Shown piece by piece: positions 7,249 through 53,600 of a stretch of 64,000 nucleotides of DNA. Below the pieces are notes generated by a model. It did not search any database. It was not told where the DNA came from and saw nothing but the letters and a program-made list of their open reading frames with translations. Positions within the stretch are counted from its first letter, which is position 1. Each line of letters starts with the position of its first letter. Origin of the DNA: Polytrichum commune. Its lineage: Eukaryota; Streptophyta; Polytrichopsida; Polytrichales; Polytrichaceae. Both the position numbers and the translations under genes were made by a program. The stretch spans positions 47,695,554 to 47,759,553 of the forward strand of contig OX485803.1 of the NCBI GenBank assembly GCA_950295325.1. The letters are read 5' to 3'.

Positions 7249-7457
7249 ACCTTGGTAGCAGCCCATGCGCTTTGTTGGCGTTCAAATCAATGTTTCGTAG
7301 GGTCTCTTTAGAACTCGTAAGGTGCCCACAAAGATTGACTAGCCATGACATGGTTGCCTACTGTCCATTTCCACTACTGCCCCCGTGATGTGGATATCAT
7401 GCCCAAACTTGGTAGCAACCCGTGTGCTTTGTTGGCATCCAAATCATCGCTACGTAG
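7249..7457. repeat. Tandem duplication interrupted by a solo LTR
   Basis: The sequence 'cttggtagcagcccatgcgctttgttggc' near 7251 recurs near 7409. The first copy continues as 'cgtagggtctc..gcccacaaa'. The second copy stops at 7457, where the solo LTR begins, and its continuation ('cgtgaggtccttaaaac..gcccacaaaa') resumes at 8430. The duplicated DNA therefore existed before the LTR inserted. Confidence 0.7.
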
Positions 7458-26739: not shown

Positions 26740-26744
26740 CTCAA

Positions 26745-27723
26745 TGTCGCAACCCTTGTTACCTTCCTTAACAATTTTGATCCATTTTCAACTCTAGCAA
26801 GGGTCACGAACGCTAGCCCTTTGCATTCCGCCATGCTAATTTCGCAGACCTCTTATTTTATAGGAGGGAGACCAACCCTCCTACACTTGCATTCGAGACT
26901 CACTGCTTAATCGGTAATCAATGATAAGATGTGAACTTCCATCCATGGAAGTCCAATCTTTAATTAATCATTGCGTTGCCAGAGCAACACTACAACAACC
27001 CAAGCCATACTAAACAACTATGCCCCCATGTTGGGCCAATGCCCATGAAGGCTGTGTCGTTTGGCCTCGGGTGGGTTTGGCGGCCACACCGCCTCACCCA
27101 TATAAGCCTCTAGGACTTTTGGCAGGGCCCCTACCCCATCGTCAAGAATCTTTTTGTCTCTCTACCAAGAGTTGGGGCCACGTAGACATTTTCCCTTAAC
27201 CGTTGGGGCTAAAAACCCCTAGCAGCTTCAGAACACCATAACTTCCTTGTATGATGTCTAATGCAAATAAACAACCACTCCATTGTCATCTACGCTTCAT
27301 GTAAATGCCGATAGACTCCTCAATTACTCCATTCAAGAAAATATTGAGGAAGTTATACATGTTCAAACCTTGGCAGTCCCGGAAGCCACTACCAGGCCAC
27401 TATTGTATCAGGGCGTTGTCCTGGGAGAGCGCCCCACTCAAATTGCCATCACTTAAATTGCCATATCTCCTAGCTCACACCTCTGATTGAGGTGTTCTTG
27501 AGCATTCTAGATCCACACGCCATAAGCTATGCACATCTTATGGCTTTACCCTTGTGACTTCTAATCTTCGTGGGTGGGAGGTGTTCCCAATGCCCGAGGC
27601 CCTCACCCACACTAGGATCACTTGGGTCCCCTCACCAACAACGGCACAAGTCTCAGGTGTCACTTCGGGATCCCCCTTGTGCCCATGGTGTTTCGGGCAC
27701 TCTTCATGAAGAGGTGTGCAACA
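26745..27723 (+). mobile_element. Solo LTR, family R, copy 2
   Basis: It begins TGTCGCAACCCTTG and ends GGTGTGCAACA. It is flanked by a perfect 5-bp target duplication CTCAA (26740-26744 and 27724-27728). It is collinear with the copies at 7458-8429 and 43055-43991, and no internal retroelement sequence is attached. The duplication shows it inserted as a full element that later collapsed by LTR-LTR recombination. Confidence 0.88.
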
Positions 27724-27728
27724 CTCAA

Positions 27729-28900
27729 CTACTGCACACAAATCTTCCAAATCCATCCTACCTATAACTACAAACAACACTGCTACCACTTCCTCTCCAC
27801 ACCGAGGCAAGGCTTCCGCAGCATCTTCCATCTTCCTCTCTCTCCTTCCTAGGTGTTTCTAATGAGCCCCTCTTCCCCGAGCTCCCAAGACACCTCCCTT
27901 CTTGCTCTTTTTTTTCCCGGCGATGCTTGACATCTTTTGGGGCAACCCGCAAAAAAACCAAGCTACCCCTTGATTTTTTTCTTTTTTTCTTCTGATTTCT
28001 TGCCTCACAACTTGACTTAACTTAAGTTACCTAAACCTTAACTTAACTTGCGTTCCTCTCGCCATCTGAGTGTTTCTTAGGTTCTTGATTTGTTTTCAAC
28101 GTCAAAATTACATTACTCTTGGATTCCTCATGCATGTGGGCACAATCTTGGGCTCATAGTCCTATAGCGCAAATTAGTGCAATTAATATATGCTAAGAGG
28201 AAAGTGGTAGCATGTGAAGTATAAGTTGGATAAGTGGAGAAATTGGGTGGGAAAGAGGATGGGAATTGTATTTGTGAATGGCAAAAGAATTATTTGTTAT
28301 GTGGGTGTATGCCAAATGGAGGTGACAATTCCAGTTTGGAAGTATCGAGTGCATCAACGACGAATATCTTTTGGGAACTTCCATTGAGAGAGGGCATTGG
28401 GGGTCTTGGTTTAGTTTCTACGTTGCCTCCGATATATAGTAAGGTGCTAAAAACAACACCTATAAATGCCTCTCAATCACCAACACCCTTCTACCTTGAA
28501 AATTTCCCATGGAAGAGGAGCGTCGGGGCCCAAAGAGTGAGGGGTTTAGGTGCTATTAGTGGTGTCACCGCAAAACCGGCCTCCTCTACCTCCATATAGG
28601 GTAGGTAACGGACTCCACTCTATCTTGGTTGATTCAAGGTGGGGTCAAGGTGGCTTGTCAATGTCTATTCTAGCCATTGTATTCTCGGCGCGCCGGGGGG
28701 GGGGGGGGGGGGGGGGCCGATCGGTTAGGGGTACAAAGGGGGTTGGTTATGGGCACAAAGAGGTTGGGATGCAAGGGGACGGTTTTACAACCGAACCAGG
28801 TGGGATCATGAAGGCCATTTTGGGCTTTGATCTGGGTTGGGTTTAGTACCCAACTATGTTGTGTTGGTTCTAAACAATCATGTGTTGGTTCTAGGTAATG
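27729..28900. other. Intergenic with a G22 homopolymer
   Basis: No gene recognised. A run of 22 G at 28695-28716 sits next to GGCGCGCC. Confidence 0.4.
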
Positions 28901-29760
28901 GAGGTGGGGGCCCTCATCATATGCAAGGTCATCATATAAAAAGCCTAGGGGTCAGTGTAAGGAAGCTAGTGGTTTTGACTTTAATTTTTTTATCCAATAT
29001 TCATTTGAGGCCAATTTATTTTCATCATACTTTTGTTTATCTAAGGCAAATAATGCTTAAACCAATTATGGAAGTTGTTGTACATACATATGGCTATGTG
29101 GTTAATGCTATATTCAGTGTATGGTGTGAGGATGGGGATTATGTTAGGATGTTTTGGGTTAATTATGTAGGTGTGTGGCTTGTTGTTTTGTTTGAGTAGG
29201 AAGAGTAGTGGTTCTTAGGTGTAGGGGTTGTTGGGTGTTGGGGGTGTCGTAGTGTGGCGGTGTTGTGGTGGTTACCAACAATGTTTTGAAGGTATAAGTT
29301 GTTATAAGGGTTGGGTTCTCTATTATTTTTATAATTCTTGGTAGATTTATAGGTGGTGCTTGTGGTGGTGAGGGGTGCGTGGATTGAATGGTATGTATGC
29401 TCATTTCTAGATAACAAAGGTGTGAGAATGAATGCATTTTTTGTGTTGTGTTGGTGTTAGTAGAGTTGATTGCTTTAGAAAGGGAATTGTGTTCAATGTT
29501 TGCCAATGGTTGTTGAATGTTAAGCTCTTTGTGTTTTTTGGGTGGCCATTTGTGTTGAAATGTTTGTTCGATTTTGTCATTTATGACAAAAGGGTTGCTT
29601 TGTATATTTGTATTTTTCCTTGTGATTGGTTGTGCAATATGATAGTGTTTGCTCTATGGAGGGGTAAGTTTGTGGAGTCATTGTATGTGTTATTCAATGG
29701 GTTATGTGTAGGTGGGAGTTGTGGGCTTTGAGGAAACTCATTGTTGGTTTCTCGTTAGCA
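28901..29760 (-). other. Strand-asymmetric tract, possible LINE fragment
   Basis: The plus strand is strongly G/T-rich, as in the coding part of the LINE at 20995-23330, so the minus strand is A/C-rich and has long Thr/Pro/His-rich open frames (for example 29159-29506). No RT or endonuclease motif is visible. It may be an old 5' part of a related LINE. Confidence 0.25.
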
Positions 29761-30129
29761 TGTTGTTTTAGACTAGATTTGTGATTGGGATTTTAGACAT
29801 TAAGATCATGTGCATGGACTTTATAGGAGGAAATTGGTTTATGAGTACACAAGTGTTAAAAAACACTCGTCACTCTCATCGCTTAGCGTTACATCCTCTT
29901 CTGCAATTCTTCGCCATTCACTCCCAAGTTCGTTCATTCTTCGCCATGGCACCCTTGAGTGCTTGATTACAATCCCAACAACTTAACTACAAGTTCCCCC
30001 CCTTGATATCACCTTATGATGCCTTGTAGTCAACTCCCTAGCTAAATGCTCATTACCTAATTAACATTAGGTAATATTCTTATTAACTAACTATGACCCA
30101 ATCTAATGTCCCAGCTGTCTAACTTCTGA

Positions 30130-32745: not shown

Positions 32746-34640
32746 TTGTATTTATCATATATTAGCAAAATTTGACGAACATCCTGCAAAGTAATCCATA
32801 GACTCACATCTACTATGTGAAAATTATTCATGTAGCCGAAAATTGAGGGGATGTGCTAAATATAAACTAGACTACATAGTTATAGGCCCCTTACTCATGT
32901 TGTTCTAGTTTCATTCTTTTGTGATAGGAGTTGTTTAATTATGTATTTTTGGGGTAAAACCATAATTTTTGCAAGGCTCAAAAAAATAATTTCATTCTTT
33001 TTTAATTAGAAACTAGACATCATGAATTGAAATCATGAAACTACAAAGTGACTGCAAGCTACAAATACAATATTTATTTCACAAGTGGCATTTTTGGTCA
33101 ACATGTCTTGCGAGATAAAAATATTTCATGAGGTACAAATTGTAACCTTAGATTAAAGTTTTTGATCAAAGCTTCAAAGTTGGTAGACAAAATAAATTAC
33201 ATAGATAGTCCATGTTCTCCTTCTATCTAGAAGCATTGTCTTATGTTTGACAAAAAAATAGATGAGCACCTAACATACTATTGTCCTACCTAATTACACA
33301 AATCTTTCTATCTTTAGGTTGCTTTGACACTCCCAAGTCTTAGATTCAAATTGAAAATGTATCAAATTTTTTTACATGCCTTTGATGCTAGAATCAAATA
33401 TTCATTGATTCATGGTCCCATGATGCAAAGGTTTATTTAAACTAGTGTCAACACTAATTTCTCACATGATTAACCGAGTTGTTTGTGTCAACATTGCTTT
33501 AAAATAATTAAAATTGATTGGTTGTTGCATAAATGGAAGTAGGAATGGCAAAGTCACCAGGTGGCTCACTATTGGCAGCTGCAAGTATGAAGGTGATGGT
33601 GACCTTCTATTGACAAGCCCTTGGAAGATTCTTTATCACTGCGGTGTGCAGTTTATGCTTGGGCCTTGTCCTTAGTTGATGGTGGTATGAATTCAAGGTT
33701 TGCCCTTCTCTCATGAGGAAATTTTTGGTTGGACCTTGTTGGGTTTTGAGGATATGGATTTTAGTCTTGCATCCTAATTTGTCATATTGTGTTTTGGTCA
33801 TCCAAATGAAAATGGGCTTTAAATAGGTCCAAGACTGTGAGTTGTAGGGTTTGTTATCCCAAGTTCTTGTTGCTTTGCGATGTGAGTGTACTATGTTGTG
33901 ATTGTTTGTGCAAGGTCTTTAAATTGTGTGCACATTGCATGTTTTGAATTTTTGATAGCCCATCTTGCTCAACATGAAAGATGTTTTCCCATGATATGCC
34001 TTCAAGAAAAGAGATTCTCTGTGCATGTGAGTCAATTGTAAGATAGAACAAAAATGTGTTGCAATTGTTGTGTGTAGATCTTGTTTGGGATTGCATTATG
34101 AGGTTCATTGTTGTTTCTTTGGTCTTTGCTATGACTTGCCACAACATTGGAGTGCGTGGGTCCCTTGGAGAAAGGAGATGGTGAACAAATAGTATGTTTT
34201 TGCCTTAATTCACAGTGGGAGAAAGAAGAGGTGTAGAGGTTGTTGAGTTTTTGTATTATACTTGCCCTTTTTAGTGAAGTATGTTTTGTGTTTATTTGTC
34301 CAACCTTGTTATTTTCTTTTCTATTTTTTTCTTGAGAGGTTCAACTATACTATTACAAGAGTCATTGAGTACAACGTCATTTGCAATAGTCATATGGGAC
34401 ACCCTGTATATCTTAACAAAATGAATTGTGTGATTGGCCGAGACTTGAAGTTGCAAAGGGTTGGCATGCTTTGTAGGGAACCAACAAGTGGACCCCGTGA
34501 GGAAGAAGGCAACATCATGCGCTTGGGTGATGATTTGACAATCTCGTATTGTATGTTTGCTTGCTTTGATCAAGGGGAATATTGGTGATTTGAGGTCGCT
34601 TTCATTTGAGGATAATATCGATGTGTTGTGTTTTTGGTTG
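32746..34640. other. Intergenic, nothing recognised
   Basis: Short open frames on both strands near 33607-34588 overlap each other and show no domain. No exon model can be supported. Confidence 0.35.
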
Positions 34641-34646
34641 GTTGGT

Positions 34647-34745
34647 GTGTGTGTGTGTGTGTGTGTTTTATTTTATTTTATTTTAGTTTACTTTACTTTA
34701 CTTTTTGGGGAGGGGGAGGGGGAGGGGGAGGGGGAGGGGGAGGGG
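34647..34745 (+). repeat. Compound microsatellite (GT)n-(TTTTA)n-(GAGGGG)n
   Basis: (GT)n at about 34647-34666, then TTTTA/TTTAC units, then (GAGGGG)n to about 34745. It makes a low-complexity Gly-Glu ORF that is not real. Confidence 0.85.
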
Positions 34746-36300
34746 TGATATTTTTAGCATAATTTGAATTTTTGGTTTTCTGTATGTAGCTTCCAAAATC
34801 ATGGCTCCAAGAAACATGAGGGAAACTGCTTATGCATAGGGACAACGGTGAGCTTGAACAACTTTGAAATGTCTTGAGGCTTCCGTTATAATTTCTATTC
34901 ATGGAATTGACATCGATGTTTGTTTTGGTAGAAATGAGGAGGTTTCTACAGGAGCATTATATCTTGCATGTTTATGTATTATGCAAAGCATAGGTTCTCT
35001 CACTCACAAGCACTTTCAAATGGTTGTCAAGGGTTATTTTAGTCATGTCATGAAGAACATCATGGTGTCTCCTAGGTGGGAGTAGAATCCTCATGTTGGT
35101 CATATTGTGTCTTTAAAAATGAAAAGATGAAGGCTTGGACACATTCTTGAGTATGGTTGGTTATTGTTTGAAGGACAATGGGGAGGACTATTTTGAGTTT
35201 GTTGTTCATCATAACGCTTTTTTTAAAGATACAAATGAAGGCAAATTGGAGTATGCAAGGTTTGAAGAATAGGGTGAGCTTGTCACGCAACAACATCTTA
35301 TAGGGGATCCACCAATGGGCAAGACTTCAAATGAAAAAGCATTTGGGTGTAAGCTTATCCGGTGCATTGTATCACATGTGCAAGAGTGGCACATGTGAGG
35401 AGGGTTGCCTTCATCTAGAGGATAATCGTGGATCCTTGTAACACAAAATGAAAGATATTTCCCCCCCCCCAAAAAAAAAATTATACTATTAGTGGTGTTT
35501 CAATGAGATACTTGAGTGTTCAACATTTTGCATTTAACCACATGGTTGAAGAAAGAGATATAGATCATACATTGCATGACGATGATTTAGTTGCAATGGA
35601 TGCATCTGGTAGAGATGCTACACTCATAGGTTTGCGAGATATGGAGGGAAAAAAGTTGAGAGGTTGGTGTGGTAGAAATCGACACTCCTTGATAGAGGCA
35701 CCTTGCAACTAATGGCAATAGATCAACAACAAAGTTGCAATGTTAGCAAGGCGGTGCTAGTGTGGCCGCCAATCCCAACACATGTATTTTTATTTTTTTA
35801 TTTTTTTATTTTTGTTTGTTTCAAACACATTTATAATCTAGCTCTTTGCAAAGCTTTACCATTATTGGGTTTGATAGCGCTTCTTGACATATGTCCCTTG
35901 TATATTTATCTGCTAGGGGGTTACCTCAAGATAACAAAGAAGAGGTTTTAAGAAGGCCTTATGTAAACATTTTTGTTTTACTTCTGTAATATGTGTGTGT
36001 ATATGTAATTTAATGTAATAGATAGTGTTTTTTTGCAATGTAAACATACGAGTTTCATTTACTTTTGCACATGAATACCTTTCCAATATGCTCCTTGCAT
36101 GGGTGAGTTATTCTAACAAACTACTATGGACCCCATATGTTAGCACCATGGGACTTGAGCAAAATCTCACATCAACTAAAAAATTTGCAATAATTATCTT
36201 GTCACTTTTATTAATTGGACACTTCTGAATTATAGAGTGTTGTATGGTAAGGTTTAAAATAAACACCAAAGATATTACATTATTTATAATGTTTAGTGCC
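34746..36300. other. Intergenic, nothing recognised
   Basis: A C10A10 run lies at 35461-35480. ORFs of 60-87 codons occur on both strands without recognisable motifs. Confidence 0.4.
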
Positions 36301-37449: not shown

Positions 37450-37998
37450 TGTCGTATAAATACCAATCGTGTGTCACTGCAGCTCGAGTACCAACCATCA
37501 CTAACAAACAACACTAAAACATAGCAAGATCACATATGAACAACACATCTCGACATAGAATGAAGAGAGTAGAAAACTCATAATAACTCTAAATCTCTCT
37601 TCAAATGTACACAATTAGTCAAGCTATCTCTCACTCCACCAAGGGAGAATCCAAGAGTGTAAGTAGAAGGAGAAAAACTCAAGATTTATTGCAAAATCAT
37701 GCAATCTACACCTCACACAAGCTCTCTCCACACACTAACTCACAAGACTTGACTTGGTAAGAATGCCAAGCTAAGGAGGAGGCTCCTCACTTAGGAGCCT
37801 TACATTCCAAAACTAAGGTTCATCCATCCAACTCTAAATGGATGAAACCCAACGGATAAGGTGTGGCTGCCGACGCCGCATACCGTGACAGCTGTCGTAT
37901 AAATACCGATCGTGTATCACTGCAGCTCGAGTACCAACCACCACTAACAAACAACACTAAAACATAGCAAGATCACATATGAACAACACATCTCGACA
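37450..37998 (-). repeat. Candidate 3' LTR region of the gypsy element, with internal direct repeats
   Basis: In element orientation the region starts TGTCGAGATGTG directly after a polypurine tract (GTTAAAGGGGGC, complement of 38000-38010) and ends ATTTATACGACA, giving TGTCG/CGACA termini. Inside, a ~107-bp segment occurs twice (37450-37556 and 37895-37998) as direct repeats around a 332-bp core (37561-37892). The core recurs, about 94-95% identical by eye, at the other end of the element (47888-48223). Whether the LTR is the whole 549 bp or the core alone is unresolved. The 107-bp repeat contains TATAAATACC on the plus strand. Confidence 0.55.
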
Positions 37999-38283: not shown

Positions 38284-38480
38284 TTAAGTACGATTGGTAG
38301 AAACACCAAGTACTGAAGATCCTCGACAACGAGGACAACTCCACTGTCCAGATGGTAGAGACGTCAATGGTAGCCTCAAGCATGCCATGTGTCAACCACG
38401 TTGACACTGATCATACAAGAGCATAGTAGCCGCTCCTTTCTTCTCTCCATACACAAAACATGGAAAATCCTCTGGCACGA
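38284..38480 (-). pseudogene. PHD finger at the C-terminus of the integrase polyprotein (broken)
   Basis: After the integrase tail (NCAPCHLP..) the frame reads PCFVYGEKKG, then LLYDQCQRG, a TGA codon at 38392-38394, HMACLRLPL, then GQWSCPRC, and ends at TAA 38284-38286. This is the Cys4-His-Cys3 layout of a PHD finger (Cx2C..Cx2C..HxxC..WxCPxC), with two expected Cys read as Tyr and the conserved Trp before HxxC replaced by TGA. All three changes are G-to-A on the coding strand. PHD fingers bind histone H3 tails, so in an intact copy this could tether the integrase to particular chromatin, as chromodomains do in chromoviruses. That role is inferred. Confidence 0.72.
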
Positions 38481-39625
38481 CGGCTAGTTCAGGATGAACT
38501 GTACCCTCAATGGGTAGATGACATGGGGCACAATTTTTGGAATGCTCACGACATTCCATGCCATCCTTGCCTTCCAACAACAACAAACCACTCGGCAACA
38601 CCTCCTTCACCCGAAGGATAGTGCGCCCCACCCTGACATCCAATGTCGTAGGTGCCTCACGTTGGAGATAAACATAATCCCCTTGCCGGAATCTCCGCAA
38701 CTGAGGTCGGTAAGCATCACTACGAATGCGTGCATAACGCAATGTGTCACGGTGCAGAGCAATGGACAAATTCTCCATGGCCATAGGCATGGCCCTCTGG
38801 AAGAATTGAGCCCGCTCCTGCAAACATTTTGCCCAAATGTTTGGGTCATCCAAGTCCACAACATGAGCTAAATTTTCCTGAATAGAAATCGGGAGAGTAG
38901 GCTCACGTCCATACAATAACTGATACGGGCTGTAGGATGCTAAAGAGGCCTGCCTACTAAATCGATAGCCCATAGCAATCCAAGGCAACATAAGGTCCCA
39001 ATCCCGGTGGCTTCCCCGAAGTAATCCATACTTCCTCAAGCCACGTTTGATTGTCTGAACAACCCGTTCAGCCAAGCCATCTGCCTCCGGATGATCCTGA
39101 GAGGTGGTGTGGTTCTCCAAAACGTGCTAACACACAATCCAAAAAGGCGGCCGCGGCCAACTCTGCAGAGTTTTGGGGTAAAGCAACAAGCTCAATCCAC
39201 TTGCTAAAATGCTCCACCATCACCAAAACGTACTTTGCTCCACGTGGTGTAACTACCAACGGCCCTGCAAAGTCCAGCGACCAACGGTAGCTTAGTCCCA
39301 TGATAGGTAAGGGCTGTAACTGAGGTGATAAGGTGTTAAAGCTAGACCTGACCCGGTCACAAACTTCACACCTCCTGACATAGGCAGCCACCTGCTGATA
39401 CATGCCAGTCCACCAATATTGGCCACGCAACATCGAATGTGTCCTGCGTATGCCAAAATGGCCAAATTCCTCGTGCACTTGTCGCACCAAGGAGGCCTTC
39501 TGATCCGGCCTTGGAACAATACGCCTTGTTCCATCCGGCCACAATCGAAATAACAAACCGCTCTCCCAACGGAACCTTGTTATTCGATGTCCAATCCTAT
39601 CATTTTCCATTGCCGAAATAAACAA
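38392..39625 (-). pseudogene. Integrase (HHCC zinc-binding and rve core), internally deleted
   Basis: The frame from 39625 contains an HHCC zinc-binding module (HEEFGH..CEVCDR), then the first catalytic Asp in RWSLDFAGP and KYVLVMVEHFSKW. After ARFGEP the frame breaks at about 39110. The second frame (39120 down) resumes with SQDHPEADGLAERVVQTIK, the motif containing the catalytic Glu, so the stretch with the second catalytic Asp is missing. The C-terminal part keeps a gypsy-like GPY-type region (RQGDYVYLQRE, PSGLLLLEGKDG). It is followed by the PHD finger. Confidence 0.82.
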
Positions 39626-39637
39626 AGGAAAGGTATC

Positions 39638-40465
39638 TTATTGAAGCTTATGCAATACGGGAAGATCCTCCCATATATCCGCAATAGCTTGAGGCCGATC
39701 AGTCTCATCATCCGAGCCCTGTATCGGAATCTCAATAGATGCACCAGAAAACAAAGTGAGGTAGGCAGCCGCGTGCCAACCTGGAACCGCCTCTCGATCA
39801 CAATCTCCATGCCACTTGGCCCCGGTCAAGTCCTCGTCTGAAGGACTTGGATTGCGTGAGAGTCCATCTGCATCCATGTTGGTAATCCCAGTACGGTGGA
39901 CCACCTCAAAGTCATACTCTTGGAGCAACAAAGCCCACCTAGCAAGCTTGCCAGTAAGCTTATCCGACTTCATGAGCCACCGTAACGGCTGATGGCCAGT
40001 CACTAAAGTAAAGTGCTGACCATAAAGATACGGCCGAAAATGAGCAATAGCCCATACCGCCGCCAATGCTTCTCCCTCGTAGGATGAATAATTAGCCTTC
40101 GCCGTGTTATTGCTTTGCGAAGCGTAAGCAACAACGAACTCCCGGCCAAAATCATCCTTCTGAGTGAGAACTGCTCCTAAACCCAATGAACTCCAATCCG
40201 TATGCAACTGGAAAGATTTGGAGACATCTGGACGTCGAAGCACTGGAGCTGTACCCAGTTTCTGCTTCAATGTCTCAAACTCCTGTTGTTGCTCACGACC
40301 CCAAGTCCACAGTTGGTCCTTGCTCGTGAGAATGGTGAGAGGCTTGGCGATCAAGCTAAAGTTCTTGATGAATCGCCGATAGTAATTCGCCAAGCCCAAG
40401 AAAGCACGAAGTCTTCTGCAAGGCGTCCACCTTAGCTTGTTGTACCCCAAAACTTCATGGAACAA
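39638..40465 (-). pseudogene. RT thumb/RNase H domain of the gypsy-type polyprotein
   Basis: The frame contains the RT connection (RRLRAFLGLANYYRRFI), then RNase H: LHTDWSSLGLGAVL (first Asp), YEGEALAAVWA (Glu), and VTGHQPLRWL where VTDHQPL is expected, so the third catalytic Asp is Gly. The gypsy-typical RTGITNMDADGLSR follows. It ends at a TAA in the same frame as the integrase ORF, 12 nt before its first listed codon. The stop replaces what is probably a CAA codon, so RH and IN were one reading frame. Confidence 0.85.
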
Positions 40466-40547
40466 TCATATGCCCTAGATATGCCAACCGGTCATGGAAA
40501 AATTTGCACTTGCCGTGGTACAAACGCAATTCCCACCGCCGAAATCG

Positions 40548-41321
40548 CTAAAAAACGGCTTGAAGATGCTTTACATGCTTCTGTGGTGTTTTGCTAAAAA
40601 TGATTACGTCATTAATATAACACCGAGCAAAAAGCAAGCCAGAGAGAACTTGGTCCATCATTCTCTGAAACTCAGCAGACGCATTCTTGAGGCCAAGTGG
40701 TAGAAACTTCCAATGATAAAGTTGATTTTTCCGATCTTGATCAACTCCCCAGAATCCGGTTTTCACGTGATCTCCCACAAACAATGGGAGCTGGTGATAT
40801 CCGGATCTCAAGTCCAAGGTGCTAAAGACCCGAGAAAATCCGATGGCATCGAACAACTCCTCGGGGATTGGCATGGGATACCGATCCGACTTGGTCTTCC
40901 GATTAACTGGACGGTAATCCCCACACATCCGTTTCTCCGTCCAATTGCCAAAGATATCCTTCTTTGATGGCATAACCGTAGAACAATCATACTTCATGTT
41001 GGAAAGTCCGATTAGCCCTGCTGCCAAGAGCTCTTCGCAACGAGCCTGAACGCCAATTTGCTCGAAAACACTGAGCCTGTAAGATCTCCGAAAAATGGGA
41101 TGGTTGTCTTCCAACTGAATGTGGATGGATTTTCCTTTATAATCTTTAAGATCCTGAAGGCTAAAAGCAAAACATCTACAATACGAGCGAATAAATGCTC
41201 GTACCTTCCGTGCCTCAGCACCAGTGAGACGAGGGCCTAATTCAAGTGGCCAATCATCAAACTTTGTAGTCTCCCTCTCCACCAAAGGACAACCACTTGA
41301 TGCTAGCACAAATTCTAATTG
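40548..41321 (-). pseudogene. Reverse transcriptase, catalytic box mutated to YIND
   Basis: Follows the methyltransferase frame directly, separated only by an in-frame UAG (41322-41324). Conserved RT blocks: HPIFRRSYRLS (template entry), DYRPVNRKT, YPMPIPEELFDAI, FSTLDLRSGYHQL (first catalytic Asp), FLPLGLKNASAEFQRMMD, and CYINDVIIFS where YIDD is expected. The Asp-to-Asn change (codon complement at 40611-40613) removes a metal-binding residue. Downstream, two stops (TAG near 40536, TGA near 40460) and a frameshift break the link to the RH frame. Confidence 0.88.
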
Positions 41322-41324
41322 CTA
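41316..41324 (-). other. In-frame UAG-CAA-UUA between methyltransferase and RT
   Basis: In coding orientation the stop at 41322-41324 is TAG followed by CAATTA, matching the UAG-CAR-YYA consensus known for tobamovirus-type stop readthrough. The frames on both sides are the same. It may instead be a CAG-to-TAG mutation in a dead element. Confidence 0.4.
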
Positions 41325-43049
41325 ATGAGAGGAGGGGGCATTAACCATACCCCCAGTTTCGGTGCTAGTACTAGAGTCTGACATTTCTTCATCACCACCA
41401 ATATGTGATGATGAAGCCACCACTGGAGGCGAAGAAACTGAAGCAGTGTAAAAATGTTGAACTCGAAGCTCCTCCATCACATGTTGCTCGAATTGAAAAA
41501 TTCGTTCGGCTTCTCCAACCATGGCGTGAATTCCCTCCTCCATAGGTGTGGACCGCTGTGCCCCCTGACCAGAGTCCTCTGCCCCCAGAGACAACCACTG
41601 GTCACCACGATGCCTTTGCAATGAAAGGCATAAAGCAACAGTCCACAACATGGTATGAAGATCCATAGCTTGGCCCAACACGAAGCGTCGTTGGCCCTCA
41701 GAAAGGCCGGGAGCTGCGGTGGTGCCAGTGCGGAATCCCATGGCACGCTCCCGTTCGTCTGCCAATGGTTCAGTGTGGGTTTTGGTGTGAACATCCCACA
41801 CCATACCCGGCCCCCTATCGCGGAAAGCGAATGACTGTGGAAACGTCATAAATGTGGGAAAGGCCCGCCGTGGCGTCCCCATTTTGTTGACCAATGCCAA
41901 TGGGGGTAAATCATCTCGAACAACCGGCAAAGAAGTCCGGTTTGGATCGAAGATGTCATCCACCTTTTGATCAAAAGGTGGAGGCACTGCAGAAAATGCT
42001 GCAGCTAAAGTAGATGACGGTACGAGGTTGGTCCAAATCCACCGAGGTTGGTGGGCATAAGAACCAATGCTCACGGCATCCACAAAAATGGGATCTCCAA
42101 GGTGTTGACGAACATAATAATCGCCTTCCAACACCTTGTCCCGAGAGTCTCCCAACAAAGGTACATTCTCGAAAATATACCTTGAAGGGAAACGTTGGTG
42201 GGAATACCACCACTATATGAGGCGGATGAGGTCCCAAAATAGAGTAGACCTGGGATCCTCTAGTCCTCGGCCTGCTCCAGCACGTGAATGGCCTTGGCAT
42301 AGCCATCCTGCAATCACCATATCAACCGGACCTAAGTGTCGTAAGTCGGCCTCACTGATGAGTGTGACATCACGAAGGAGATGTGAAAAACACTTACGAA
42401 TGGCAGTCGGGTGTAACTGCTGTGGGTACAACACCATCAACCGGTGAAGATGATGACGAGCCGCACGGGTGGACACTAGAGAGTTGTCCACATAGACATA
42501 TCGGTTGACCGTAAGGCCAACCTCCAATACGGCTGCCAAACCTGTGCCAATGCCCCCAAATAGCTCCACCAAAGTAATTCCATTGTCTGGAGGATGCCAC
42601 AAAATGGGGCGTGCCAACGTGGATAGACTATCCGATATGACAGGTTTGGTAGAACTGAGAGAGATGACAATGTCATCACACCTTTGGAACAAGCCAACGG
42701 AATCACGCCACGGAGGTAGAGGGTCTTTGGGATGTCGCACCAAGGAATGCCTAGGTGCCATGTCATGTGGGTCTTCAACACTCCCCATGAACGTTAATGA
42801 CTCCTCCAATAATACGGATCCATGAGGCAATGTATCCACCATAGCACTGCATCCAGAAACCATGGATAATGGTGCAATGGTGGCGGCCGCTGCGAATGCC
42901 ACATGAATGAGTTCCTTACGGCCGTTCCCAGCCGACCAACCGGGGCGGATCCAAGCCTCCTCAGTCCAGTTGTCCAACCCAAAGCCAAGAGGGTAAAGTG
43001 CTTGTTGACCAACTAAAATGTCATAGTTGGTCGCATCCGTCACCGCACA
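41322..43049 (-). pseudogene. Cytosine-5 DNA methyltransferase domain inside gypsy pol (with the 3' end of the protease)
   Basis: Just after the nested LTR the frame carries the protease-linker end (DILVGQQALYPLGFGLDNW), then a C5 methyltransferase. Motif I is LVELFGGIGTGLAAV (42541-42566). An acidic AdoMet-contacting motif is VYVDNS. Motif IV is VIAGWLCQGHSRAG, with the catalytic Cys at 42297-42299 and Leu where Pro of PCQ is expected. The typical GLEDPRSTLFWDLIRL follows. Motif VI is YIFENVPLL (ENV at 42162-42170), motif VIII-like QPRWIWTN, and motifs IX/X are ERERAMGF and FVLGQAMDL (about 41655-41740). An in-frame TAG at 42213-42215 separates motifs IV and VI; both halves are in the same frame. 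A Ser/Glu-rich linker leads to RT. The RARYFWGN-like motif VIII hints at DNMT3/DRM-type relatives, but this is unsure. Confidence 0.85.
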
Positions 43050-43054
43050 CCTAA

Positions 43055-43991
43055 TGTCGCACACCTCTCCATGAGGAGTGCCCGCAACACCATGGGCACA
43101 AGGGGGACCCCGGAGTGACACCCGGGACTTGTGGCGCCATTGGTGAGAGGGCCCAAGTACTCTTAGCATGGGTAAGGGCCCCGGGCGTTGAGAACACCTC
43201 TCACCCACGGGGACTAAGAGTCATGAGGGTAAGGCCATAAGTTATGAGTAGCTTATGGCGGTGGAATTCTAGAATGCTAAGGAACACCTCAATCAGAGAT
43301 CCTAGCTAGGAGATATGGCCATTTGAGTGGGGCGCTGTCCCGGGACAACACCCTGGGACAGCAGTGACCTGGGAGTGGTGCCCGGGACTGCCAAGGTTTG
43401 AAGAGCCATAACTTCCTCAATGCTTGCCTGAATGAGGCAAGTGAGGGGTCCATCGGCATCTACGCAAAGAGTAGGTGACGATAGAGCGGTCCCTAAATAG
43501 CATCAGACATCATATGTAGAAGTTATGGTGGTCTGAAGCTGCTGGGGGGTTCCAACCCCAGCGGCTAAGGGAAAATGTCCACTTGGCCCCAACCCTTGTA
43601 GAGAGACAAAAGGATACTTGATGGTGGGGTAGGGGCCCCGCCCAAAAGTCCTAGAGGCTTATATGGGTGAGGCGGCTTAGCCGACCGACCCCCCCGGAGC
43701 ATACTTGGCAATGTGCTCCGGGTAGTTGTAGTGTTGTTTTGGCAACACGATGATCAACTCAAGAGTGGACTTCCATGGATGGAAGTCCACCTTAGCCATT
43801 GGCTACCTACTAAGGGGAGAGTCCCGAATGCATGTGTAGGAGGGTTTGGTGACCTAGCCATGAGCTTGAAGGTCCGCGGTTTTGGGAGCTAACCATGCAT
43901 GTGCGTGGGATGTGCAGGTTAGCGCTCGTGGCACTTGCTAGGTTGGAAAGGCGGTCAAGCTAAGTGAAAGAAACTAGCAAGGGTTGCGACA
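43055..43991 (-). mobile_element. Solo LTR, family R, copy 3, nested in the methyltransferase retrotransposon
   Basis: In minus orientation it begins TGTCGCAACCCTTGCTAG and ends GGTGTGCGACA, flanked by perfect 5-bp duplications CCTAA (43050-43054 and 43992-43996, plus strand). It splits the protease/linker reading frame, which resumes in phase on the other side once the LTR and one duplication are ignored. The LTR therefore landed in an element whose frame was locally open. The host element is older than the insertion. Confidence 0.93.
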
Positions 43992-44621
43992 CCTAAGAAG
44001 AAAAGGTGCGGGTGAATCTCCAGGCTTCAGTCGGAAGCTAAGCTGTAATGGCTCCCGAGTATAACCAGTGGCCCGCTCCACGTGGCCAATAGATGTGACG
44101 ATGGTAAATGGGCAAGGAGCCAAGTTGTCGGCCATCAATCGCAATTCTTGCGCAAGTTTTTTGCCGATCATAACAGGTTGTGCTCCTGAATCCATCATCA
44201 CACACTGGGGAGCAACTCGAATAGGGTTGCCCCCAGTCCGACCGACCATTAAAATGCTAGAATCATTCACCATCCGTACAACGCCAGGTCGAATGCCTCG
44301 ACGCTCGCGAGCAGGTCGAGCAACTACATCTGAAAGATAAGCTGCACCTGTGGAGGCTGGTGAATGATAAGATGAGGTGGACTCTTGGCCATCCAAGGTG
44401 TGTGCGTCAAAAGACGCAATGGCCTCCTCCGCAAGCCTCGCCCACCGTTTGGCGGCTTCCTCAGGATCCTCCGTGGCAGGAAGATCAGCGGTTGCTTGAG
44501 CCATAGTAAAAGAAGAGGGGGTTGCCTTTCCCTCCAAAATCCTACCTGCTAGGTGAAAAACCTTAGCAGGGTGGACATCTGATGACGACCATTCCATCGC
44601 TGTGAACAAAGGGGTGTGCAA
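43992..44621 (-). pseudogene. Aspartic protease (retropepsin-like) region of gypsy pol
   Basis: The frame reads EWSSSDVHPAKVFHLAG, an Ala/Glu-rich linker, then QCVMMDSGAQPVMIGKKLA, in which DSG at 44184-44192 is the retropepsin active site. It then reads IVTSIGHVERATGYTREPL and is cut by the nested LTR. Its frame is -1 relative to Gag, overlapping the end of the Gag frame near 44600. It could be a programmed frameshift or a decay indel; no classical slippery heptamer is obvious. Confidence 0.8.
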
Positions 44622-46345
44622 ACTTTGGATGCCAAAATGTGCACCACGTCGGTCTCCGGATTCGAAGCCTCCAAGCTCGGATTACGACCACTGATAGATT
44701 GAGCAGCATCAGCCAATCCAAAAGACAATGGAAGACGTGTCTGGCCAATCTGATCCGCAGGACCATTGTTCCGAGCGCGTAAGTTATCCACAGACTCCCC
44801 TGTGGTCGGAGGCGTGGCTTGTGACACAGTTTGAGCACGTATCACCGCTGCGGAACTCACCACCTGTCTAGAAACTCCAAATATATAATAATCTGGTTTT
44901 GAAGAACTAGCCTTAGTTCCGGAGGTAGATGGTGAGTCCAAAATTTGGCTGGATGACGACAAAGTTTTGAACCTCTCCTCCAAGACACCAATCTTCGCCT
45001 CCAACGTCTTTTCCCATTCGGAAGAAGGACGTTTCTCTGGATGGAGAGCGAAGCGGTTTTCCACCGAGTGATTGTTCCGCCCACAATGGGAACACTTCAA
45101 TTGTTTGGGTAATTGATTACCCGCCCCCTTCACCGAGCCCTTAGCGGAAACAAATGGTTTCCGCTTCGGAGTAGTGATGGTCTGGGCTTGCCTTTGCTTT
45201 GAAGGACAATCCTTCTTAGCATGGCCCGCCTGCCCACAAGACCAACAATGCAAGGTCTTGTCCACCTCTACTTCCGCCAACCCCGCAGCTGCAACCGGAA
45301 CCTTCCGAGATTTGCTAGATTCTACTAGCATGGACACCAAATCAGTGGCGTCGTGCTGACACAAGGCACGATCACACTGCTCAACAATGGCGAAAACTTC
45401 CGCTAGTGTCGCTCGGCCACCATGATCCATGATGATCCTAGGCAAAACTAAGTCAATGAGGCGTTTGTCAATATTTGACAAAAACACCTTTACCAACTGG
45501 CTCTCGGCGAAAACACCTCCAGATTCTCTGGCAAACCTCGCCAATCTCGTGTACATGGTACGAGGAGTGTCATCTTTCTCCCGTCGAAAGTCCTGGATAC
45601 GCTGCATTTGATCGCGGCGGAAGCCTCCATATTCCTCCTCCAAATGGAGTTGGAATTCATACAGAGGATCAAAATCCGGCGGAGCTCCTAAAGAAACTAA
45701 TGCCGCCTGGGTGGCCTGGGCATAACGTGACAGTGGAAGAATGGGGCTTGAAGTACTCGCCGCCGCGGAAGCAGGACCCGTAGCCCTCGGCTCACCATGA
45801 GGAGCTCCCTCCACATCCACCACATAACCTCCTTCCGATACCTCTGATTTAACCTCAGGAACGGCCATTAAACTAGAAGCTGCGCCTTCCTTCAATGAGG
45901 ACACCAACTCAACCCGAGACTCCCAGTACCGCTCCACCTGGCGCAGCTCCATCCAATGAGCATCTGTCCATTGCTCATAGATCAGGAGAGCTTCGTGCTC
46001 TAAATGTTGTGACAGAAGCTCAAACGCATACCAATCGTTGAAGTTGGTGTTGCGTTGACGCTTCTCCCACATTCATGTTCTGAAACGAATTTTCCAATCT
46101 TGCAGGGAAATGGTTCCCGCTCCACCAGAAAATCGGTCATGGATGCCGCCTCGCGTCTTCTCCTCCATATCGTCAAAGGATCCCACCCAAAGGACGTGAG
46201 ACCGAGTAACAATTCCCCACGCCGAAGTAGGCTGAAAAGCCTCGTCGGGTGCTACCACGGGTTCACTGTCCAAAAGGTCCGAAGATCGACCTTGCGATGA
46301 TGTCGGAGACAAAAAACGATAATGTTGGCTCTGAGTTGTAACCAT
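44549..46345 (-). pseudogene. Gag of the methyltransferase retrotransposon
   Basis: The frame begins at the ATG at 46345 (MVTTQSQHYRFLSPTSSQG), is interrupted by TGA at 46073-46075, then continues in the same frame from MWEKRQRNTNFNDWYAFE. The central part (FQLHLEEEYGGFRRDQMQRI, TPRTMYTRLARFARESGG, FLSNIDKRLIDLVLPRI) resembles retrotransposon Gag capsid. A zinc knuckle CWSCGQAGHAKKDC (CX2CX4HX4C) follows at about 45209-45251, then a second zinc-like module CSHCGRNNHSVENR whose expected third Cys is Arg. A coiled-coil-like segment (EKTLEAKIGVLEERFKTL) lies near the C-terminus. Confidence 0.85.
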
Positions 46346-47887
46346 AAACCCGCAATGGATTTGGTCACTGGAGCCAACAACCTAAACTAATGTGGTATTA
46401 GGGTAAAGGCAATCCGCACCTGCAACCACCACCAAATCTTATGGTCTGCTGGTCATCAATCCAACCTTACCATAAGGGAATACACACACAAGGGTCTCGT
46501 CGGTCATTATTCCGACCTCACCCCACAATACCTTATCACAAACTAGGACAACACAAAATGGGGCAATGTTGGAAGACTCCAACACAACAGTCCGCCATGG
46601 GAGAAGGTACCATAACAAAATACAAGGAATAATGCAATAACAACACTGGATCCTCTTCCCCAAAACAACACTTAAACAAAAATGGAAAGCGACCGCAACC
46701 AACCGGTACCCGCCTGTGGTTGGTGATCAAAATGAAGAGCCCCTGTTGCTTAAGAAAAGAAATTGCATAAGCAGATCGCTCATCTAGTCTACAACATAAA
46801 ATCTTGTCTTCCCCGAAGTCCCGGGAATTTGTGTTTCTAATCACAATTCACCCTTAACAATGATCTTGTTAAGTTGAATGGTAATTCCAGGTGCTAATTT
46901 GTCCCATCCCTCGGCAGTTCCCTCAACAAAAACAAACCTATCCCAAATTCAATGCTTAAGGAAACTTGTGGAACCTGTGTCCATAAACACAATTCGACCT
47001 CAACATAGGTCGAACGGTGATTCCACATGCCACACCACTCCTTGTGGCAATTCCTTTGCAATCCTTAAACAATCCCCCAAATGAATCCACATTACCTTAA
47101 TATTTCATAAGAAGTTTGGGGTTCATTTTGTATTCTTGATAAATGAAAACAAGAAATTAACCTCTTAGAGAGAACATAAAAATTAGAAGTTGAAAGGAAA
47201 CATAACATAAAATTAAATTAAATTAAATTAATAAAAAATTAGTTTTTAAAAATTAATTAGTACCTTAATTAATTTAAATTTAAATTTAAAAAACAACATA
47301 AAAATTTAAGAAAACTTGTTAATACGTAACCGGTTGGACTTACAAACACCCGGATCTCAACCGGTTACGAAAATGAAAATGTTCCCAATCGCTACCCCCG
47401 TGTCGGGGTTGGGTAATTCGCGCGTCTGCTGCCTCCTGCCCTGCCTTGGCGTCTGCTGCATGCCGCCGCGAGCCGCTGGCCAGGGGCTAGCAACAAAAGC
47501 AGCAGCAGCAGAAGCAGGCTGCGGCTGCTTCCTTTAGGTTTTTTTTTAAATTTAAATTTTTTTTAATGTCACAAAATTTGTGTGTTTGTATCACAAATTC
47601 CTGTACTTAGAATTACAAATCCTCTTCCAAACTTAATGTCACAAATTCAAGCTTGAATGTGAGTAAAACAACATGAAATTCCGTGGAAAATGCAACACCT
47701 TATCACCAGAATTCACATTGAAGTGACATTCACAAGTAAACATTCTTCGTGTTGCTTCGCAAATTCGTTGTGTTCTCACTCCGGAATTTCACAACTTCGT
47801 CACTCCTTGTCTTCATGCCCTCCCTTGCGCGTTACATCTCAAGAATGAAGAAGAAAACATCAAAGATGAAGCATTCTTGCCAAGTGA
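46346..47887 (-). other. 5' leader of the retrotransposon, nothing coding recognised
   Basis: Lies between Gag and the right LTR core. It contains AT-rich runs (47200-47300), a GC-rich patch (47390-47530) and an ACCGGTT-family word near 47329. No primer-binding site could be assigned with confidence. Confidence 0.4.
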
Positions 47888-48223
47888 GAAGAAAGAGAGT
47901 AGAACACTCATAATAGCTCTAAATCTCTCTTCAAATGCACACAATTAGTCAAGTTATCTCTCATTCCACCAAGGGAGAATCCAAGAGTGTAAGTAGAAGG
48001 AGAAAAACTCAATATTTATTACAAAATCATGCAATCTACACCTCACACAAGCTCTCTCCACACACTAACTCACAAGACTTGACTTGGCAAGAATGCCAAG
48101 CCAAGGAGGAGGCTCCTCATTTAAGAGCCTCACTTTCCAAAACTAAGGTTCATTCATCCAACTCTAAATGGATGAAGCCCAACAGATAAGGTGCGGCCGC
48201 CGACGCCGCATACCGTGACAATG
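47888..48223 (-). repeat. Candidate 5' LTR core of the retrotransposon
   Basis: In element orientation it begins TGTCACGGTATGCGGC and matches the core at 37561-37892 over about 330 bp with roughly 18 substitutions by eye, nearly all transitions. The homology ends at the same base (TGTCACGG) in both copies. The 107-bp segments flanking the left core are absent here. Confidence 0.65.
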
Positions 48224-50133: not shown

Positions 50134-50685
50134 AGCTGAGAGGTCTGATTTTCCTGGAACATTTACATCCTGATTGGTGATCCATGGCTGTGCTTCGCAG
50201 CGAATTCGTCCAGATTGAATGGCATGCGTGCCCCTATTCTAAGAATGTGCATGCCAAATTGCGACAACCTCACAGTATCACTCATTTAGGATTAGTGGCC
50301 TTGGGCAATCCTGTTTGGAGTTATCAGAAGACTGCACCCTTCTTTTGATTGCCCATGTCAGAATCTGCTTGTCACATATCTTGTCAGCCATTTCTGATGT
50401 GCCTTTTCAATAAGTTGAGGCCTGAATTTTCTGGACCATTTCATCCTGATTGGTGATCCATGTCTCCATTCCTCAGAGAATTTGTCCGGATTGATCTGCA
50501 TGCGTGTCCATAATCAAATTTGCATGCCAAGTTGCGACAACCTCACAGAATGACTCGTTAAGGTTTACCTTTGAGTTTGTCAAATCCCATAGGAGTTGTC
50601 AGAAGACTGCCCACTTGTTTGGATTGCTTATGTCAGAATTCACTTATCGCGTGTTTTCAGCCATTTCTGATGTGCCGTTAATGCT
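50134..50685 (+). repeat. Tandem duplication, unit about 275 bp, at the 5' end of the Kir-like gene
   Basis: Copy 1 (about 50138-50412) and copy 2 (about 50413-50685) share 'catcctgattggtgatccatg', 'cgtccagattga', 'gcatgccaa.ttgcgacaacctcacag', 'gttatcagaagactgc' and 'cagccatttctgatgtgcc'. The spacing is 276 nt at the start and 273 nt at the end. The chosen start codons at 50630 and 50681 lie in copy 2. Confidence 0.8.
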
Positions 50686-53600
50686 GATATGCCAGGACAC
50701 TGCTGTAAGTAGTTCATCATATGTAAGAAGCTATGCCATCGGAGGTGTTGATAACAAGAGATTGCAGAAAGATCAAGGATCTTCTTTGCCATGTGATGAG
50801 GCGGACGAAAGCAATCTTAATGGGACCTCGGAGACATCAAACTCAAAATCAATCCACTGTGTCCAGGGAGAATCAGAACTCAGGGAAGCAAGGGAATGTA
50901 GTGAAGAAGGAAGCTCAAGAACAGAGGGCAATCTACAGGGAGAGGCTGATGACCCTATTAGAATAGCTACATCTAAGGAGGAGGAAAGCAAAAGCACCTT
51001 TGGAACTGAAGACGGCATCAGGACAGAAAGGAAGAGGATGGGGCGCCCTAGGAAGAAGAAGAAGAAAGCTCACTATGCAGGGATTGCAACTTATGACGAA
51101 TCTTCAAACAGTATACGACTGAAAGAGGAGAGTGCTATTGAAGTAGGGAAAAAGTCTTCACCAGGTGCTACTCAGAACCTCCAAACGGAACTGCAGCCTC
51201 AGTGTGATTCGGTAGGAAAAGATCCACTTGGAAAAAGCAATTCCAAGAAGGAAGAACCAAGATTAGGGTTTAAGGGAACATTGAAGGATTTACCCCTCAA
51301 TAAGGCCATCTCGGTGAGTGCGATGAGTGCAGAGCAAGAGGTGAATCTCAAGAAAAAGCCAACAAGAGAGTCTCTAAGTGCCAAGGAACATACACATTTG
51401 CCAAGTTTGCAAGGGTTTAAGGAAAAGTACAGTAATGAGGAGACAGCGATGAAGAAAGATGATGAGAAGGGCACTGTTTTCTTCGAACAGAAACCTGATG
51501 ATGGTGCCAGAAATTCACAGAAGATAAGTAAGGGTGTTCCAGAACTTGTGAGACCTAGAGAAAGAAATGATAGAGGTTCTGTGCATAGTTTAAAGGCTGC
51601 TAAAACCTCAAAGAAAGACAAACAGCTTGATTCAGAGCATCTAAGTGGGGAGTCCTGTGTTGAGACTGATGCAGAGGTTGTCAAAGTTCTCACCCCTGAT
51701 TCAACACAGCTTCTTCATTTGGTATCTCAAAAGGTTGGGGCTGATTCAGAAGCCTCTGATATGAAACGACTTACTGGTCCTGCTTCTCTTCCCTGGGAAA
51801 CAAATCAAGAACATGCCCTACACTTCAATTACCTGGAGGCAGAACAACAATCTACTTTGGACATGTCTACAACAAGCTTTGAGTCCAAATCTGAAGCACC
51901 TTTTGGCAAGGTGAGAAACATCGTTGCTGAAAACAACAGAACTGATGGTAATGGTCCTGGTGGTACAGTGGGCACTGTGCATCTGAACAGCTGTATTATG
52001 GAAGCTACCACACAAAATGCAGATGGTATGCAATATAATAAAGCATATGTCTCAATTACGTAAAGTTTCATGATCAGAGAAATGAGCACCTAACTAAACG
52101 TGCTAGAAAGTCAGGTATCCTTGACCTCAGTACTGTGTTCAATTCGGTGGTCATACCCTTACATATGTTAATATCAGAACATAGAAGTGCAGATTAAAAT
52201 TAGAACTTTATGTTGCGAACTAAGGGACATTTATGCACGCATTTCAGGTGGACTACTATTTTGGAGTAAGCCAGAAAGCCTTTCATGCCAACGATAGATG
52301 ATAAGTGTATATATCCAAACACAAGAAATTTAATGTTCTTCTAGTCAGCATTTGACCTTTTTATGTAACTTTTTGAACATCTAACGTATCTAAGAATCAG
52401 CAGAAATACCGCTGTGAGCTAGTAAAGAGTAGTGGGAGTCTTTCTTGAGACCTCCAGATTTTGGTTTCTGCAAGTGAAGAGAATTGTTGGTTCTCATAGT
52501 TCACCTAACAAACTATGTAGAAAAATCAAAGATATACCACATGCTTTTGCGAAAGTCAACCTCCAACCTGTCTCAGCAGTGATGTTACAGGCTTTTGTAG
52601 CAGTCAAAGAGCAAGCAAAGGAGATGACTTTGGAGGTTCTTTCAAATACCGTTATTGAGCAAGTTGGCCAAGTTGCTCAAGAGGTTGACAAATGCCATTA
52701 TGAATATTATTACAGACACGGACGTACTTTCATTGCCCATGTTCTAAAGCTAGAGTGCACATGCCTAGTCTTGCACAGGAGAGTGGATTTTCTGCATCAT
52801 TTCTCTGTCTTATTCAGATGTATCATTTTTGTCTCCCAACACTTAACAGAGTTGCTGGTGCCTGTACAGACCACGCAAAGCATCAAAACGAAACTGGTAG
52901 AGCCAGTTCTTGAGGTTCTTCCAGAGACTGTGATTGAGCAAGTCAGCCAAGCTGTCAATCAGGTAGGTCACCAGAAACCTCTTAACTCGCTGATCAGATT
53001 CCACAACATCCTCTCTCATTCTGTAACTATAATTTTGTGTATCATGCAAGTTTAAAGAACCTAATTTCTAACTTTAGCTTAAGTAGACTTCAGAATCAAT
53101 CAAAAGAAAAGCAGTGGAACGATTTTGGAGGTTGTCATTGAGAAAGTTGGCAATATTGTGCAGCAGTTGCTTCTCTTCTTTTAGAGATGTTTCGTGGTTT
53201 ATTGAGCACTGCACCAATTTTCTGATAAGTGACTGAGCACCTGTTAATGTTTCTCTTCTTTTTATGCGTTAAGCTGAAAATTTACTATTGGATGAACAGG
53301 TAGAGCAGGTCAAGGTGAATGCTTCTATAGCAACGGAAGTAGTGACATCAACTGCTGGCCAAGTGGCCGAATCTATGACAACAACTGCCAATCAAGTTAA
53401 AAAATCCATTAGCGAAAAAGCAGCTCAAGTATCTACCACATTGACTGACATATTACTGGAAGGGTTCGACACTGAAGATGAATTTGAGGCTTTCAAAACC
53501 TCTGAACTTGCGGAGTTTCGGGGTGTGCAAGGCTTGGAAAATTTTGAGGTCTTGCAAGAAGACACAGGGATACTTGTCAACCTACAGGATTTTTATTTCT

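Follow-up and report, generated by a model that had tools for sequence, protein, structure and literature searches.

A decayed Ty3/gypsy-kind retrotransposon of Polytrichum commune with a DNMT3-type methyltransferase, and the multi-copy family to which it belongs

The window analysed here, a stretch of 64,000 nucleotides of the Polytrichum commune genome (contig OX485803.1), carries on its minus strand (41325-43054) the final part of a retropepsin and a whole DNMT3-type C5-methyltransferase with un-rearranged motifs, in frame with a Ty3-type reverse transcriptase (RT). The element is almost certainly a Ty3/gypsy-kind retrotransposon of the KnitGypsy-Dnmt3 sort in a decayed state and, going by the sequences of other copies in this genome that are intact and moved recently, its family is a living one. 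Taken jointly, this identity, the architecture set out below and expression through a leaky stop at a Gag-like dose form a reading in which we have considerable confidence. The open reading frame (ORF) listing and its translation show a single frame spanning the retropepsin end, the methylase and the RT, with TAG at 42213 and 41322. A preliminary description of the window had proposed a C5-methyltransferase in frame between the protease and RT of a Ty3/gypsy element; identity and domain order prove right, the six motifs that it quoted are all present in order, and the hidden Markov model check that it called for returns PF00145 on the first half of the domain (E 1.7e-8), the second half being without a PF00145 match in Pfam. 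The methylase runs from motif I at 42563 to motif X at 41658, in the order I, IV, VI, VIII, IX, X, and is not rearranged as in DRM. The parts of the element are as follows.

47887..48220, minus strand: repeat A1 (left, 334 bp), which begins TGTCACGG
44609..46357, minus strand: Gag with CCHC knuckle (tblastn 84% identity, residues 3-586 of ORF1 of the intact copy L018)
43989..44621, minus strand: Gag end and first part of the aspartic protease (tblastn 85% identity, L018 ORF1 residues 582-792)
43055..43991, no strand assigned: solo-LTR-like (long terminal repeat) insert of another family, 937 bp, TGTCGCA...TGCGACA, target duplication TTAGG; foreign to the element, splits the protease
41325..43054, minus strand: protease end, linker, C5-methyltransferase and ORF1 tail (tblastn 85% identity, L018 ORF1 residues 790-1366; PF00145)
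42213..42215, minus strand: in-frame TAG within the methylase, a mark of decay (translation)
41316..41324, minus strand: TAG CAA TTA, leaky-stop motif (UAG-CARYYA) between ORF1 (Gag, protease, methylase) and ORF2 (RT, RNase H, integrase, PHD)
40413..41321, minus strand: reverse transcriptase (RVT_1 E 3e-15)
39071..40414, minus strand: RT end, RNase H, integrase zinc-binding domain and core, in a different frame (RT_RNaseH E 4e-35, Integrase_H2C2 E 1e-18)
38287..39123, minus strand: integrase C-terminal part and PHD finger (alignment to L018; PHD at about 38326-38460)
37893..37998, minus strand: repeat B1, directly 3' of a purine-rich tract resembling a polypurine tract (PPT)
37557..37890, minus strand: repeat A2, 94% identical to A1; GC joins A2 to B1 in a GACA-GC-TGTC palindrome
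37450..37556, minus strand: repeat B2, 97% identical to B1; ends ACGACA, the right end of the element

By its sequence the window copy is dead. Relative to L018 it has one frame change in ORF1 and two in ORF2, with a frameshift after Gag near 44615, the TAG within the methylase, a stop that interrupts the PHD finger, and the solo-LTR-like insert in the protease; the DSG of the protease lies at 44169-44198, and the protease parts on either side of the insert share one frame. The integrase core match (rve, E 5e-7) falls slightly under its Pfam cut-off, and the methylase reads WLCQ where all 15 aligned copies have WPCQ. The A1/A2 and B1/B2 pairs have diverged by 6% and 3%, and the flanks, GCAT at the left and ACAT at the right (three of four positions equal), are probably a decayed 4-bp target duplication; because of this divergence and the imperfect duplication the insertion reads as older than the examined copies with both ends found. 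Two further stretches of the window (7457-8429 and 26874-27723) are about 76% identical to the solo-LTR-like insert.

In a profile search against solved structures DNMT3A came first (E 2.7e-23), followed by DRM (6.7e-10), HhaI (2e-7) and DNMT2 (2e-3); a bacterial methylase or DRM as nearest kin is rejected on these weaker matches. The AlphaFold2 model of an intact relative, P0037, has a predicted local distance difference test score mostly of about 90 or more over residues 11-345, and Foldseek with VIA-align ranks DNMT3A/B first for it. Among C5-methylases the predicted domain is thus closest to DNMT3, in a comparison with solved structures only. As in DNMT3, the motif order is un-rearranged with catalytic PC, ENV and RxR, the window copy itself having LC for PC; PC, ENV and RPR are kept in all 15 aligned ORF1 copies, and among 35 relatives the motif IV cysteine is present in 33 and the PC pair in 30. 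Between the two subfamilies of the element (I and II, below) the ratio of nonsynonymous to synonymous substitution (dN/dS) is 0.11 for the methylase, 0.08 for the protease, 0.075 for Gag, 0.04 for RT, 0.014 for integrase and 0.10 for PHD, with 0.29 for the linker between protease and methylase and 0.63 for the ORF1 tail; for the methylase within subfamily II it is 0.23. That the element could methylate its own DNA or that of its host, as the preliminary description proposed, is plausible, but from conserved catalytic residues and constraint no more follows than the retention of an enzyme-like domain.

A search of the genome (408 Mb, 64 contigs) gave at least 123 PF00145 matches from 353 candidates, at least 133 matches to the C-terminal half of the methylase (562 candidates, 132 scored) and at least 148 RT matches from 1444 candidates. 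The union of the PF00145 and C-half matches comprises at least 195 distinct methylase loci, one of them a probable host DRM gene. Among the matches listed, RT lies downstream at 109 of the 195 loci, and a methylase lies within 6 kb upstream in 108 of the 148 RT copies. Of the remaining 40 RT copies, 20 were read (901 bp each); the methylase is present in 17 and was not found in the 901 bp of the other three, so that it precedes RT in 125 of the 128 copies examined, the other 20 RT matches standing outside this count. Copies with the same domain order are therefore found elsewhere in the genome, as the preliminary description had asked, and the one-off insertion against which it had cautioned is rejected. 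A chance capture, a neutral passenger of a few copies or an assembly artefact has a negligible probability: such an origin could draw on the broken state of the window copy and on the three RT copies read without a methylase, but it is opposed by the number of loci and the share of RT copies with the domain, by the constraint on the domain, and by relatives in liverworts and charophyte algae with agreeing trees. At one locus, L049 (C2:4702500-4705500; locus C2:4703606), the frame with the later methylase motifs precedes that with the earlier ones; because the second motif half lies before the first it resembles DRM, and it is probably a host DRM gene. DRM is described as confined to streptophytes (PMC12344493), and by this gene the host is judged to belong to them. 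The genome also contains another abundant Ty3 family with many single frames of 2086 aa (L091, C2:68976600-68982900); the one copy read gave neither a methylase nor a PHD match over 1774 aa.

Twenty copies, picked for long frames and hence not a random sample, were fetched. They split into subfamily I (ORF1 of 1386 aa) and subfamily II (ORF1 of about 1366 aa), the window copy belonging to subfamily II by its repeats, and both ORFs are at or near full length in half of them (L009, L011, L012, L013, L015, L017, L018, L020, L021 and L023). ORF1 of the intact copies encodes Gag, protease and the DNMT3-type methylase, and ORF2, in the same frame with one stop between, encodes RT, RNase H, integrase and PHD. 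The order protease-RT-RNase H-integrase and the DDE integrase are those of Ty3/gypsy, the protease matches lying under their cut-off. In 16 of the 20 copies ORF1 reaches its normal end, where the stop is TAG followed by CAATCA, CAATTA or, in one copy, CAACCA; in the other four it ends early. UAG followed by CAR YYA is the context termed essential for readthrough in tobacco mosaic virus (TMV; PMC2754532). TAG-CAATCA is also present in L086 (CADCWO010000201.1, from another assembly), between an ORF1 part that is 55% identical and an ORF2 that is 88% identical, and in the relatives P0180 and P0211 methylase and RT share one ORF without a stop. Since synonymous sites are saturated between subfamilies I and II, we infer that the TAG-CARYYA motif is kept by selection. 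Most ribosomes would stop at the UAG and yield Gag-protease-methylase, while a few would read through and add RT, RNase H, integrase and PHD. Because the methylase ends the ORF that is closed by a conserved TMV-type leaky stop, it is expected at the level of Gag and not of RT; that it is expressed in this way, as a major particle protein at a Gag-like dose, is highly probable from the sequences.

Ends were sought in 16 copies, of which the script scored 13 (L009, L010 and L019 lacked a part in the fetched stretch); the thirteenth, L022, was excluded as having a chance left match with A1 not found. The 12 copies bounded at both ends all have their parts in the order A1-coding-B1-GC-A2-B2, with TGTCACG...ACGACA as outer ends and exact target duplications of 4 bp, within the short range (4-6 bp) expected of Ty3/gypsy. 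The direct LTRs that characterize both ends of Ty3/gypsy elements were not found in these copies, the arrangement being a split A-coding-B-A-B. In 10 of the 12, no more than one substitution, gaps aside, separates the A and B pairs when both are counted together; B1 is preceded by a purine tract, and A1 is followed by a common ACTTGRCAA. Because the A-B-A-B repeats come with 4-bp duplications, the integrase seems, from these ends, to cut inside the repeat, and the arrangement is consistent with a joined circle with B-A repeats that is cut at the inner B-A palindrome. Reverse transcription, primed at a site after A1 and at the PPT before B1, would produce DNA with B-A repeats; a joined form (a 2-LTR circle or equivalent) would then be opened by the integrase at GACA-GC-TGTC, with loss of the GC, leaving A-coding-B-A-B. 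We give this scheme of reverse transcription and joined-form integration an even chance. In L016, 21 bp of A2 are missing exactly at the A2-B2 joint, with CTTG on both sides; the gap may be a scar of imprecise circle joining. A DIRS-like cycle, in which a recombinase and not the integrase of the element makes the A-B-A-B ends, would explain a repeat order that is that of DIRS elements and is the same in SymbioDIRS-Dnmt3 (PMC5890265). It is nevertheless very improbable, as two intact ORF2s contain H2C2 and rve with no Pfam match to a tyrosine recombinase, and the exact 4-bp duplications of the bounded copies are the mark of an integrase.

The role that we favour for the methylase, tentatively and at somewhat less than an even chance, is methylation of the new DNA of the element itself. 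The enzyme would act on CG sites of this DNA, in the particle or soon after nuclear entry, and the methylated insertion would arrive resembling host DNA. Self-methylation is favoured because the domain is placed where large amounts of it would be carried into the particle, because de novo CG methylation is known from related enzymes of dinoflagellates, as demonstrated in yeast for SymbioDIRS-Dnmt3 (PMC5890265), and because the catalytic residues are constrained. The CpG observed/expected ratio, 0.69 in the element and 0.44 in the rest of the window, says nothing on self-methylation. A methylase that acts instead on the host, adding or spreading CG methylation at or near target chromatin for a safe heterochromatic niche or to disturb silencing, would fit the kept catalytic residues and the Gag-level dose expected from the leaky stop, and the PHD finger on the integrase provides a chromatin-reading module in the same element; we consider it unlikely, the methylome of Klebsormidium nitens being land-plant-like despite such elements (PMC5890265). 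Slightly less probable still is that the domain is retained to bind DNA or RNA or to serve as a structural component of the particle, with catalysis incidental or directed at RNA. Its place at the C-terminus of Gag-protease is one where a nucleic-acid-binding module would serve packaging, and RNA methylation has been raised for a long interspersed nuclear element by de Mendoza et al. (PMC5890265), but the conservation of catalytic residues in every aligned copy and of the motif IV cysteine in nearly all relatives goes beyond the needs of binding, and DNMT2, the RNA enzyme, is a distant match to the profile.

The PHD finger at the end of ORF2 matches PF00628 above its cut-off in two intact copies (E 1.4e-10 and 2e-10), and its closest solved structures are CHD4, PHF12 and KMT2D. 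It may read a histone tail and help to choose the site of insertion, a function for which the chances are balanced. Chromoviruses are Ty3/gypsy elements with a chromodomain, also a chromatin-reader module, at the integrase end; the family described here has a PHD finger in its place.

Protein searches gave 101, 88 and 4196 relatives. The named methylase-bearing kin are Klebsormidium nitens P0217, Marchantia polymorpha P0257 and P0261, Calypogeia fissa P0118 (methylase, with RT and integrase on a separate protein, P0194) and, in Closterium, P0225, P0238, P0281 and others. RT and methylase trees were built from 21 of 27 two-domain proteins with two copies of the window family, P0134, P0161, P0183, P0260, P0275 and P0279 having been left out beforehand as partial or oddly placed. 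Both place the window family near Marchantia (RT tree, 99/98 for six rows that include P0172 and P0180; methylase tree, 93/91 for four), and both agree on a Closterium group and on a group of metagenome proteins in which the methylase lies between RNase H and integrase (P0212, P0223, P0226, P0230 and P0232). The RT and methylase of K. nitens and of the window family all fall among methylase-bearing rows, in trees whose deep branches are weak; P0249 and P0250 fall outside in the RT tree, with other Ty3 elements. P0037 is labelled Obscuribacterales and L086 Synechococcales MAG81. These bacterial labels are distrusted because L086 has a partial Gag-protease-methylase ORF, the leaky stop and a whole RT-integrase-PHD ORF, and both are most likely plant DNA in contaminated metagenome bins. 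Viral contigs gave no matches with P0001 and P0171 as queries and, with an alignment query, 16 loci with short segments at 30-58% identity; a search of genome contigs gave five loci, L086 and four from Streptomyces.

The kind of element is already in print as KnitGypsy-Dnmt3 of Klebsormidium nitens, in which a DNMT3 lies within a Ty3/gypsy element (de Mendoza et al. 2018, PMC5890265), and the algal reports mentioned in the preliminary description are of this kind. The two are alike in having a DNMT3-type methylase in a gypsy coding frame, in many copies and under purifying selection, and, per the figure legend of that paper, in a DIRS-like repeat arrangement; K. nitens P0217 (KFL_009030040) has methylase, RT and integrase in the order of the window family. 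They differ in that the methylase of KnitGypsy-Dnmt3 is in the Pol ORF with RT, whereas here it closes the Gag-protease ORF before the leaky UAG. The words PHD and readthrough are absent from the main text of that paper, and no mechanism for the repeat order was found in the portions of it available. Nearest among organism-named rows in both trees are Marchantia polymorpha Mp_2g26090 (P0257) and MARPO_0091s0058 (P0261), with methylase then RT; they differ in that the methylase runs into RT without a visible stop, and are known here from gene models alone, which no paper found in the open-licence literature treats as methylase elements. SymbioDIRS-Dnmt3 of dinoflagellates shares a DNMT3 and A-coding-B-A-B repeats (PMC5890265) but is a DIRS element with a tyrosine recombinase, not Ty3. 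The rice gypsy element RIRE2 is named as a readthrough candidate (cited in PMC2754532). The likeness, drawn by description only, is that of a plant gypsy element with proposed readthrough. RIRE2 is not known to contain a methylase.

Several observations weigh against parts of the reading preferred here, that of a Ty3/gypsy family with a constrained, Gag-dose and self-directed methylase. The protease and zinc-knuckle matches of two intact copies, and the zf-CCHC match in the Gag of the window copy (E 8e-4), are under their Pfam cut-offs, and by-eye inspection of the candidate primer site after A1 (ACTTGRCAA...) assigned no tRNA. Methylase dN/dS within subfamily I is 0.56, on few changes. PHD and methylase are not tied together, since long relatives with no methylase match (e.g. 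P0186, P0215, P0218, P0272 and P0273) can also have a PHD finger, and because the abundant L091 family of the same genome lacks a methylase match in the copy read, the methylase appears dispensable for spread. Deep branches are weak in both trees, K. nitens is not close to the window family and, with P0249 and P0250 outside in the RT tree, a single capture is not shown. Finally, KnitGypsy-Dnmt3 gave no methylation in yeast, a result stated to be inconclusive (PMC5890265).

Elsewhere in the window, a 273-bp unit in two tandem copies (50140-50676, 77% matches) overlaps the start of a long ORF on the plus strand (50495-52063), which is possibly a host gene, and blocks of strong GC skew (size about 0.3) at 20000-24000, 26000-30000 and 34000-36000 are perhaps other mobile elements. 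tRNA and Rfam scans of the window gave no matches.

To the printed kind the present analysis adds kin in liverworts and in the streptophyte genome studied here, the leaky stop that closes ORF1, the integrase PHD finger, the A-B-A-B repeats with 4-bp duplications and the RNase H-methylase-integrase order. The preliminary description is silent on the stop, the finger and the split repeats. Searches of the open-licence literature brought up no account of the leaky stop, of the PHD finger, of the target duplications, of the second domain order or of an occurrence in liverworts. They also yielded no paper that describes Ty3 elements with a methylase from land plants or Ty3 integrases with a PHD finger, and for Ty3 elements with split repeats they yielded de Mendoza et al. 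alone. Retrotransposons of streptophytes and dinoflagellates are mentioned as carriers of DNMT3s in a survey of 2025 (PMC12344493). The remark in the preliminary description that such an element is unusual in a land plant holds in part: it accords with a 2019 paper according to which land plants lack methylase transposons (PMC6338049), and it is qualified by the Marchantia and Calypogeia proteins of the same kind, which speak against that printed absence. Why a transposon should carry the silencing enzyme of its host has been stated to be unclear (PMC5890265); many intact, recently inserted copies in two subfamilies make the purpose of the enzyme testable. The leaky stop gives a concrete prediction on the dose and place of the methylase, in the particle and not only with the polymerase, and the split repeats with target duplications make it possible to test cleanly whether a circle can serve an integrase as substrate. 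A wider and speculative proposal, which we think improbable, is of a charophyte-to-bryophyte lineage of integrase-bearing retrotransposons whose attachment site moved inside the repeat and which integrate from a joined circle; in the window branch a Gag-dose methylase, made through a virus-type leaky stop, would methylate the circle before integration, and the PHD finger would pick the chromatin. If true, retroelement ends would be built in three ways, the LTR and DIRS designs being joined by this one, of which self-methylation would be an integral step.
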